The notes under the pieces are model-generated. The model did not search any database and had not been told where the DNA came from. It saw nothing but the letters and a program-made list of their open reading frames with translations. Below are positions 6,379 to 13,218 of a stretch of 32,823 nt of DNA, in pieces. The stretch is taken from NCBI GenBank assembly GCA_903844685.1, contig CAIMUM010000127.1, forward strand, positions 1 through 32,823, given 5' to 3'. Position 1 is the stretch's first letter, and every line of letters starts with the position of its first letter. The DNA is from an uncultured Dehalococcoidia bacterium (lineage in GTDB: Bacteria; Chloroflexota; Dehalococcoidia; GIF9; UBA5629). A program made the translations under genes and the position numbers.

Positions 6379-6636
6379 TCAATCTTCCACGCCGGCTTCC
6401 TGCAAGTAGTCCACCAGGTCCTGCAACGTGACCAGGTTATCGGCGTCCTTTTCAGGTATCTCAAACTTGTTGCCAGGCTTGCTGAAAGCGTCTTCGATAG
6501 CTGTAAGGAATTCGGCCAGATCATCCGGATCCATGTTAAGGTCATCGATGAAAGAGGCGGATGGCTCGATTGAAGCTGAATCCACGCCCAGTTCATCAAT
6601 AAGTATATTCTTAATCTTTTCGAATAGCCTGGCCAT
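6379..6636 (-). CDS. Acyl carrier protein-like protein lacking the phosphopantetheine-attachment serine
   Basis: ACP-type fold signature (LFEKIKNILIDELGVDSASIEPSASFIDDLNMDPDDLAEFLTAIEDAF...FEIPEKDADNLVTLQDLVDYL); DSL motif replaced by DPD. ATG at 6634-6636 preceded by GGAG. Confidence 0.88.
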   Translation of the reverse strand: MARLFEKIKNILIDELGVDSASIEPSASFIDDLNMDPDDLAEFLTAIEDAFSKPGNKFEIPEKDADNLVTLQDLVDYLQEAGVED

Positions 6637-6652
6637 TAGCAACTCCGGGTAA

Positions 6653-6687: not shown

Positions 6688-7110
6688 TTATTGCGCCGAC
6701 CTGTGTATATCAGTTATCACAGAACCCAGCACACCATTAATGAACTTGGGAGAAGTATCTGCGCCGAACTCCTTGGCAAGTTCGACTGCCTCATTGACGA
6801 CCACTTTGGGGGGAGCTGTTTTGGCGATGAGGATTTCATATAGTGCAAGGCGGAGAATAGTACGGTCCATGGCGAAAAGCTGGTCAACCGGGAATGTGGG
6901 GGCGAAGCGGCGGATAGTATCATCCAGTAATTGCCTGTTAGCGAGAACTCCGTTAACTAACCCGGCGGCAAACGCTGCGGCTTCTCCTGTCAGGGCTTTA
7001 GTTTCAATTGTACGCTCAAGGATAGATTCGGGACTGTTTGCTGCAAACTCCAATTCAAAGAGCGTTTGTAGAGCAACTATCCTGGCTATATGCCTGTGGC
7101 TTATGGGCAT
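6688..7110 (-). CDS. nusB: Transcription antitermination factor NusB
   Basis: 140 aa; RIVALQTLFELEF start, FAMDRTILRLALYEIL, PPKVVVNEAVELAKEFGADTSPKFINGVLGSV. Confidence 0.96.
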   Translation of the reverse strand: MPISHRHIARIVALQTLFELEFAANSPESILERTIETKALTGEAAAFAAGLVNGVLANRQLLDDTIRRFAPTFPVDQLFAMDRTILRLALYEILIAKTAPPKVVVNEAVELAKEFGADTSPKFINGVLGSVITDIHRSAQ

Positions 7111-8351: not shown

Positions 8352-8861
8352 TTATACTTTGCTCTCCTTTTTCAATTGTTCTAACTTATCCCACCGGTGA
8401 TCACTGGACCCGCTGGTATGGCTGCAATTGCCCCTGGCTAACTCATGGCCGCATACAGGGCATATACCCGGGCAATCCGGCCGGCACAATAACTTGGTAG
8501 GTGTTGACATAATAATATATTGTCTGATCGCTTCATTCAAGTCAAGTACATGAGAATTATCTATAATAAAATCCTCAGGCGCGGGGTGAAGGTGGACACC
8601 CGAAATAATATCTATAAGGGGGAAATACTCATCCTCCATATGGAACGTAATTCGCTTATAAGCTTCTCCAAGGCAGCGTGAGCATATTCCTTTTATATCT
8701 GCGTCAAGCTTGCCTGTCACAAGTATTCCGCGATTGGTGCGTATAAGACTTACTTCGCCTGATACGCGGTTGTCATTATTTTCGCCGGCAAGTTCATCTA
8801 TTTTATAATTTCGCTCGGCTCCAACCGGCTCTTTCCGGAGCTGTGCGGTATTAATTTGCAT
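8352..8861 (-). CDS. DUF177/YceD family protein
   Basis: ICSRCLGEAYKRI, DLNEAIRQYIIMSTPTKLLCRPDCPGICPVCG; immediately upstream of rpmF as is typical for the family. Confidence 0.93.
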   Translation of the reverse strand: MQINTAQLRKEPVGAERNYKIDELAGENNDNRVSGEVSLIRTNRGILVTGKLDADIKGICSRCLGEAYKRITFHMEDEYFPLIDIISGVHLHPAPEDFIIDNSHVLDLNEAIRQYIIMSTPTKLLCRPDCPGICPVCGHELARGNCSHTSGSSDHRWDKLEQLKKESKV

Positions 8862-11171: not shown

Positions 11172-11891
11172 ATGGATAGCAGTTTCAAGGGTTTTCCATC
11201 AAGGGCGGAGGTTACTCCTTTGCCCAATGTATTTTTCAGTGAAGTCTTGCCTTTGATGGAGGATGTTGTTGAGGTGAAAGTTGTAATGCAGATCTTTTTT
11301 TTATTGAGCAGGAGAAAGGGTTACCCGCGGTTTGCCAGCTTTAGCGAACTGATACATGATCCTGTGATTATAAAAGGTTTGCGTGAAGTTCCGGGAAATC
11401 CGGAAATTATGCTCAAAAAAGCGCTGGACAGCGCCGTTCAAGCAGGCATATTGATGCATATCCCTGTAGATGTTCAACAGCTGTCCGACGACGCATATTT
11501 TATAAATAACCAGGCGGAGCATGAGACTATCCGCAAAATACTCGCAGGCACGCTGAAGATCCCCAGTGTAAAGATCAGGAAGGTTGAGGAGCAGGCCCAG
11601 GTAGAAGCAAGCGATATCTATAACCTTTATGAACAGAATATAGGCATGCTTACACCTATCCTTGCGGAGGAACTGCAAGAGGCTGAACACCGGTATCCTG
11701 CGGAATGGATCCAGGACGCTTTCCGCGAAGCGCTAAGGGCAAATGTACGGAGCTGGAAATATATACACAGCATTTTAAAACGTTGGGAAAGAGAAGGAAG
11801 AAAAGATGGAAAACCTGTCGGAGATTCTCGGCAAGAAAGAGATCCCGATAAATACATCCGGGGAAAATACGGACACATGGTACGGCGGTAA
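11172..11891 (+). CDS. DnaD-like replication initiation protein
   Basis: C-terminal DnaD/DnaB_2-type helical domain (IYNLYEQNIGMLTPILAEELQEAEHRYPAEWIQDAFREALRANVRSWKYIHSILKRWEREG); N-terminal winged-helix-like region. Confidence 0.85.
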   Translation: MDSSFKGFPSRAEVTPLPNVFFSEVLPLMEDVVEVKVVMQIFFLLSRRKGYPRFASFSELIHDPVIIKGLREVPGNPEIMLKKALDSAVQAGILMHIPVDVQQLSDDAYFINNQAEHETIRKILAGTLKIPSVKIRKVEEQAQVEASDIYNLYEQNIGMLTPILAEELQEAEHRYPAEWIQDAFREALRANVRSWKYIHSILKRWEREGRKDGKPVGDSRQERDPDKYIRGKYGHMVRR

Positions 11892-13218
11892 GCCGGAAGT
11901 GTTCGTTGCCGGTGTACAGTCGGTCAATGACTGTACCGTATGCCACGGGACAAAATTCATACATCCTTTGCTGGCATCGGGCGAGCCCGATTACAGCCGT
12001 CTGGAACCGTGTGGTTGTACCAGGAAAGATATTGATAACAGGAAGGCAGCGCGTTTACAGGCTATCAGCAATTTGGGCAGCCTCTCCAAGCTAACTTTCG
12101 ACAACCTGTTGCCTTCAGGACGTAATGATGACGCTGTTTCCCAGAAGCTTTTTCAATTGGCTTTAGACGAAATCCGTAAATTCGCCGAAAATCCGCAGGG
12201 CTGGATAATTTTGGCGGGACCCGTCGGTAGCGGGAAAACGCATTTAGCCTCTGCTGTGGCGAATTACCGCATAAGCCTGGGACACCCCGCATTTTATATC
12301 ACCGCCGGTGAACTATTAGATCACCTGCGGTCAGCTTTCAGCCCAAATAGCGAAGTTGGATATGATGAGTTATTTGAGCAGATCAAGGAAAGCCCGTTGC
12401 TACTGTTGGATAACCTGAATTATTCCGCCACCACCGCCTGGTCAAAAGGCAAGCTTGACCAGATCTTAGAGCACCGTTTCAACGGCAGGCTTCCGACGCT
12501 GATAACCACGAGCATGGCAATTGAGGAGTTTGGCAATGACTATGCCGGGCATATTTATGATACTGAAGTCAGCAAGGTGCTCATATTGAAAAAGGAGTCA
12601 TCCAGCCTGCAGAGCTTAGATAGCCTTGATCTCGAGTTACTGAAAAACATGAAATTTGCCAATTTTGATGCCAAGCGGCTGAGCCTTCCCGACGAGGTCC
12701 GAAAAAATCTCGAGCAGGCCTTCAATATAGCCCGCGATTTTGCCAGGGTTCCGCAGGGCTGGCTGATATTTGAGGGCTTGAACGGCTGCGGCAAGACACA
12801 CCTGGCTGCGGCTATTGCGAACCAGTTGAGGGAGACGGGCAAAGAAGTCCTTTTCATCGTGGTTCCGGATTTGCTCGATCATCTGCGTTCCTCTTTTGCC
12901 CCTGAAAGCAGGATTTCCTATGACGCATTATTCGAGAAGATAAAAAAAATGCCGATCCTGGTACTGGATGATTTTGGAGAGCATGCTGCTACGCCATGGG
13001 CGCAGGAAAAGCTCTACCAGTTGATGAACTACCGTTATAACGCCCGCCTGGCTACTGTAATGACCACCTGCCTTAATCTGGAAGAAATAGAAAACAGGGT
13101 CAGTTCACGTATGGTGGACCCCAGTATCAGCCTCGTGTTCAACATCATTGCGCCTGATTACCGGGGGGATATCAAGACGTCACGTGTTGTAAGGTCCCGT
13201 CCGAGACCAAAAAATTAG
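11806..13218 (+). CDS. DnaC/IstB-like helicase loader with two tandem AAA+ modules and an N-terminal Cys cluster
   Basis: Two related blocks: module 1 GWIILAGPVGSGKTHLASAVANY..LLLLDNLN, module 2 GWLIFEGLNGCGKTHLAAAIANQ..ILVLDDFG..RVSSRMVDP. N-terminal CTVCHGTKF...EPCGC. SD GAAGGAAG before ATG. Confidence 0.88.
   Translation: MENLSEILGKKEIPINTSGENTDTWYGGKPEVFVAGVQSVNDCTVCHGTKFIHPLLASGEPDYSRLEPCGCTRKDIDNRKAARLQAISNLGSLSKLTFDNLLPSGRNDDAVSQKLFQLALDEIRKFAENPQGWIILAGPVGSGKTHLASAVANYRISLGHPAFYITAGELLDHLRSAFSPNSEVGYDELFEQIKESPLLLLDNLNYSATTAWSKGKLDQILEHRFNGRLPTLITTSMAIEEFGNDYAGHIYDTEVSKVLILKKESSSLQSLDSLDLELLKNMKFANFDAKRLSLPDEVRKNLEQAFNIARDFARVPQGWLIFEGLNGCGKTHLAAAIANQLRETGKEVLFIVVPDLLDHLRSSFAPESRISYDALFEKIKKMPILVLDDFGEHAATPWAQEKLYQLMNYRYNARLATVMTTCLNLEEIENRVSSRMVDPSISLVFNIIAPDYRGDIKTSRVVRSRPRPKN

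Follow-up and report, generated by a model that had tools for sequence, protein, structure and literature searches.

A serine-less acyl carrier protein and a catalytically dead FabD homologue, very probably retained as a non-catalytic pair in a family of uncultured Dehalococcoidia

Introduction

What keeps an acyl carrier protein (ACP) in a genome once the serine that would receive 4'-phosphopantetheine is gone? The question is raised by a short gene in a contig of an uncultured Dehalococcoidia bacterium (CAIMUM010000127.1; the whole stretch analysed, 32,823 nucleotides, is called the window). An earlier note on this DNA had described the gene product as ACP-like with Pro in place of the attachment Ser, unable to carry the prosthetic group at that site and perhaps an obligate-apo binding module. 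We call this product ACP1; FabD1 is the product of a fabD gene that lies two genes upstream and is read in the same direction. The window's genome, G000, is a 2.05 Mb assembly that is 78% complete.

Human MCAT (structures 8csp-8css) is a FabD homologue and still an active enzyme. It also acts as a bona fide factor in assembling the small mitoribosomal subunit, where it separates h31 and h42 until late steps (PMC9892005). The mitochondrial ACP, mtACP, is located on the precursor of the large subunit (pre-mtLSU) together with MALSU1-L0R8F8 (PMC10693566). Plasmodium falciparum no longer has mitochondrial FASII, yet it retains a Ser-less mACP, which is essential through Isd11-Nfs1 binding; the glutamates 5 and 11 residues past its Ser site contact Isd11, an LYR protein (PMC8547962). 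Each half of such a pair is already known separately from mitochondria: an ACP that is always apo, and a FabD homologue that moonlights. A literature search of incomplete coverage, and so weak as evidence, returned nothing direct on a bacterial Ser-less ACP, a ribosomal role of FabD or FASII-less Dehalococcoidia. It also returned no bacterial pair of dead FabD and apo-only ACP that is fixed in a family and outlasts the loss of FASII.

Table 1. Location of the features discussed (numbers refer to the window unless a locus of another genome is named)
Feature	Position	Strand	Basis
ACP1, Ser-less acyl carrier protein, 85 aa, ATG start	6379..6636	-	PF00550, AF2 model, Foldseek
Pro codon CCG at the phosphopantetheine-serine position	6526..6528	-	sequence and alignments
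nusB, between FabD1 and ACP1	6688..7110	-	PF01029 / TIGR01951
FabD1, catalytically dead malonyl-CoA:ACP transacylase homologue, 316 aa	7154..8104	-	TIGR00128, alignments, AF2
rpmF, ribosomal protein L32	8151..8351	-	PF01783
yceD, large rRNA subunit accumulation protein	8352..8861	-	PF02620
Gene of about 400 aa between fabD1 and nusB in other genera	L063:6763-7983, L067:5059-6288, L107:6604-7743, L109:5958-7193

Results

An acyl carrier protein with proline at the serine site

The ACP1 reading frame (Table 1) starts with ATG at 6636-6634, with a GGAG motif 6 bases upstream, and stops with TGA at 6381-6379. An alternative frame of 87 aa is listed from TTG at 6642, and the residue in question is Pro37 counted from the ATG and Pro39 from the TTG. 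ACP1 matches the PP-binding family PF00550 over the whole profile with 35 bits, above the gathering threshold of 20.8. The best match to the NCBIfam ACP models has an E-value of 5.7e-18, yet it remains under the ACP equivalog cut-offs. AlphaFold2, given 24 relatives, predicts a four-helix ACP fold (pLDDT 89), and the best Foldseek matches of the model are ACPs with TM-scores of about 0.8-0.9, and up to 0.93. ACP1 thus resembles bacterial AcpP in fold, length, helix II acids, acidity and its fabD-linked locus. It differs in lacking the attachment serine, and its loop is five residues longer, a trait common to the order. Profile alignment and modelling bear out the ACP-like character that the earlier note had read from the sequence, and the alignment puts Pro, encoded by CCG, exactly at the attachment position.

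With Pro at this site, and without an AcpS match in the window's genome, the claim that 4'-phosphopantetheine cannot be attached there holds. No AcpS (PF01648) match was found in G000 (78% complete), G001-G005, G018 or G026. Nor does any PF00550 match other than ACP1, or any canonical second ACP, occur in this 78%-complete assembly; a canonical second ACP is equally missing from the 93-98% complete relatives G003, G004 and G018 (contamination about 5% in G003, 1-2% in the other two).

Age of the serine loss

The window belongs to a family of uncultured Dehalococcoidia, f1, represented by 30 genomes in 16 genera; ACP1 is readable in 26. The closest named record is a Lake Pavin MAG, whose FabD1 is 98% identical. 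Ser is missing from 24 of the 26 readable proteins, with Pro in 22, Ala in one (G021) and Gly in one (G020), and it is retained only in G014 and G025, members of a divergent genus. Outgroup families of the order have a normal DSL motif in ACP, as do named Dehalococcoidia records generally where an acp is present. Because these keep DSL, the loss of Ser is old and shared within one family. A recent point mutation or sequencing error is rejected by the 22 orthologues with Pro: the loss spans more than 10 genera, and for that reason the refuting case named in the earlier note, DSL orthologues pointing to a recent mutation, fails inside the family.

Modification at a neighbouring serine can also be rejected. 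The residue following the Pro is D, S, E or P depending on the orthologue, so a Ser there is unconserved, and no conserved serine takes over the role of the lost one. In helix II, the glutamates 5 and 11 residues past the Ser site are invariant. The evidence favours the reading of ACP1 as an obligate-apo binding module, which we regard as supported.

A FabD homologue without its catalytic residues

The genes of the locus are ordered yceD-rpmF-fabD1-nusB-acp1 and converge with mfd. FabD1 scores 269.3 bits against TIGR00128, above the cut-off of 260.9, with homology over the whole length. Its AlphaFold2 model agrees with FabD structures, and human MCAT (8csp) is a match in both sequence and fold. 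However, the nucleophile motif GHSxGE has become GHGCGE, with Gly98 in place of Ser, and the catalytic His is replaced by Tyr202 (GAFYS instead of GAFHS). The oxyanion loop is altered from GQGSQ to GQES(K/R/I/H): the first Gln, Gln14 in the window protein, is retained in all orthologues but one, and the second is gone. The Arg that binds the malonyl carboxylate (Arg123) is invariant.

In other families of the order the same locus encodes a normal FabD, and an ACP with DSL wherever an acp occurs; named Dehalococcoidia records generally also have a normal FabD there. For Dehalococcoidia, the ancestral state is this gene order together with catalytically normal proteins.

Between fabD1 and nusB, other genera, though not that of the window, have an additional gene that encodes about 400 aa (Table 1). 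By eye, its Cys motifs look radical-SAM-like.

Loss of fatty acid synthesis

Thirteen genomes have neither AcpS nor a full-length ketosynthase (KS): G000-G005, G008, G009, G013, G018, G024, G026 and G028. Their KS matches are short, weak stretches of at most about 30 bits, compared with 124-213 bits for live members, and are read here as thiolases. PlsX is missing in 11 of the 13, and FabZ is absent throughout f1. In G018 (98% complete, 1% contamination) and in G026, none of AcpS, KS, PlsX and PlsC is found, whereas a CDP-alcohol phosphotransferase is present. FabD1 and ACP1 both persist in these two genomes. Near-complete bacterial genomes without a recognisable fatty acid synthase are hereby brought to light.

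AcpS, ketosynthase, PlsX and FabZ are likewise missing from G004 and other genomes of the family, with a CDP-alcohol phosphotransferase present; G004 also lacks PlsC. Archaeal-type ether lipids were considered as an explanation of the loss of FASII and rejected, the PF01884 matches being weak and partial.

Where FabD1 is dead and where it is intact

Of the f1 genomes, 23 lack the nucleophile Ser of FabD1, as does G032, which belongs to another family. The replacements vary by genus, with G or D at the nucleophile and Y, N, S or H at the His position. In G006, G007, G016, G017, G020, G021, G022, G027, G029 and G032, dead FabD1 occurs together with a second, normal FabD (FabD2), whose FASII-type cluster also encodes a KS and a DSL ACP; AcpS is usually present too. 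In the 13 genomes listed above, dead FabD1 is present in all but G002, whose FabD1 was not found. G012 (76% complete) also has dead FabD1 and neither AcpS nor a full-length KS. Where FabD1 is the sole FabD of a FASII genome, Ser and His are kept in 11 of the 11 genomes examined (G011, G014, G025, G030 and seven f3 genomes). FabD1 is dead only where the enzyme role is covered elsewhere or gone. The one unclear case is G023 (77% complete), in which dead FabD1 and AcpS are present and no true KS or second FabD was found. The dead and intact genomes are non-independent points, the dead state needing one or two origins on the tree.

The order of events differed between lineages. In G011, ACP1 has lost its Ser, FabD1 is still intact and FASII is present. 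In G032, outside f1 (L066:6022-6966), FabD1 has GHG and AFY with the ACP1 Ser still there, and these changes are possibly of independent origin.

Constraint on the dead protein

Dead FabD1 has a dN/dS of about 0.03-0.08, below nusB and yceD in nearly all pairs. The following values come from pairs with unsaturated synonymous sites. In the pair G018/G026 the ratios are 0.05 for FabD1, 0.13 for nusB, 0.14 for yceD and 0.13 for ACP1, and in G005/G006 they are 0.05, 0.15, 0.17 and 0.12 in the same order. In G000/G004, FabD1 is at 0.08, nusB at 0.28 and yceD at 0.11, the changes in ACP1 being too few to use. Nine genomes carry both copies, and in 33 of the 36 pairs that they form the dead FabD1 sequences resemble each other more than the live FabD2 sequences do; mean identity is 70% for the former and 59% for the latter. 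Dead FabD1 is under strong purifying selection, and this degree of constraint argues that the protein is not jobless.

The possibility of pseudogenes is rejected by the dN/dS values and by intact reading frames, apart from one in-frame TAG soon after the Ser-site Pro in ACP1 of G022 (L102:8518-8768), a genome with FASII elsewhere. There, ACP1 may be dispensable or really lost, or the TAG may be an assembly error.

Discussion

A retained pair and its likely job

ACP and FabD act together in a single reaction, and here neither keeps its reactive residues, yet the pair is intact, constrained and kept without FASII, which argues for a non-catalytic job. That the two have been retained together for a non-catalytic function based on binding is, in our view, highly probable. 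Two features that the earlier note does not describe, a dead FabD at this locus and a lost FASII, change what the proline means, from a single odd protein to such a pair. It would be the first combination of obligate-apo ACP and dead FabD in bacteria known to us. The family offers a natural separation-of-function experiment, in which the catalytic residues of FabD vanish and the protein is still tightly held.

The two proteins would be remnants of type II fatty acid synthesis, and their second job would need shapes and binding surfaces alone. Ribosome assembly is the single most likely such job, although we give it somewhat less than an even chance. It is favoured because yceD, rpmF and nusB, which all concern the ribosome or rRNA, are neighbours and because MCAT and mtACP have roles in mitoribosome assembly. 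The picture would resemble that in mitochondria, where MCAT and the mtACP-L0R8F8-MALSU1 module play such a part: FabD1, alone or capped by apo-ACP1, would engage the precursor of a ribosomal subunit, with YceD, L32 and NusB as its companions. The link comes from gene neighbourhood and homology. The gene order being ancestral, the neighbourhood may simply be inherited and uninformative on function, and the gene-context argument is weak taken alone. RNA binding is not visible from composition either, since dead FabD1 lacks strong positive charge: its net charge averages -3.3, vs -4.7 for FabD2, with no overall RNA-binding signature and a few basic positions specific to the dead protein, such as G284 to K/R, R118, R133, R268 and R311. 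Taken as a whole, the statement that this is a conserved FASII-derived non-catalytic pair with a ribosome-assembly or rRNA-chaperone job is put forward tentatively.

Like human MCAT, which is used on the pre-ribosome independently of fatty acid metabolism, FabD1 is a FabD homologue; MCAT, however, is active, whereas FabD1 is dead and has a proposed ribosomal role. Like the P. falciparum mACP, ACP1 is a Ser-less ACP retained after FASII loss, with Glu at +5 and +11. The differences are the eukaryotic organelle, a bulky hydrophobic Phe at the site instead of Pro, and a known partner, Isd11; a paired dead FabD is not reported in the text consulted (PMC8547962).

Other explanations

To our knowledge LYR proteins are eukaryotic, and this counts against the view that ACP1 is an obligate-apo stabiliser of some other complex (Fe-S assembly, SMC/Muk-like or SpoT-like), with a separate role for FabD1. 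Such a view draws on the invariant partner-binding acids of ACP1 helix II and on the essential Ser-less ACP of P. falciparum after FASII loss (PMC8547962). It leaves unexplained why the locus also retains FabD1, which is constrained more tightly still, and we judge it unlikely. Somewhat more doubtful is that FabD1 senses malonyl-CoA or another acyl-CoA, binding it through Arg123 and Gln14 without transfer and signalling to a partner, with apo-ACP1 docking on it. The invariant Arg and the nearly invariant Gln are what a sensor would keep, but the second Gln of the oxyanion loop is lost, a malonyl signal would seem of little use to FASII-less genomes, and the Arg lies within RERGRLM, a motif conserved as a block, so that its role may be structural.

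The two remaining explanations are much less probable. ACP1 and FabD1 could be relics drifting to loss, still intact because FASII was lost recently or because the operon must be expressed, and the TAG of G022 speaks for this. Against it stand the loss of Ser and His at family depth, in more than 10 genera, dN/dS far under 1 and the better conservation of FabD1 than of its live paralogue; G011 and G032 moreover argue against any single decay event. Least probable of all is that FabD1 has kept or regained some other activity through its altered site (GHG/GHD, AFY/AFN), for instance as an acyl-CoA hydrolase or decarboxylase. The change of S to G with H to Y is seen twice in the tree, in the f1 clade and in G032, which could mean selected states, though the pattern may have a single origin. 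But the residues vary among genera (G/D; Y/N/S/H), unlike those of a conserved new active site.

Returning to ribosome assembly, an extended form of the proposal would trace mitochondrial MCAT and mtACP, as surviving descendants, to an ancient role of FabD and ACP in bacterial ribosome assembly that needs no catalysis. Enzyme function would have passed first to paralogues and then been lost with FASII, exposing the role. We think this improbable at present. The family gives an opening to examine whether the additional functions of ACP and MCAT in mitochondria, in Fe-S assembly and ribosome assembly, are older than mitochondria themselves.

Other observations in the window

Adjoining dnaB in the window is an ORF of 470 aa (11806-13218), which apparently contains two tandem DnaC-like ATPase modules, with the motifs GPVGSGKTHL and GLNGCGKTHL.
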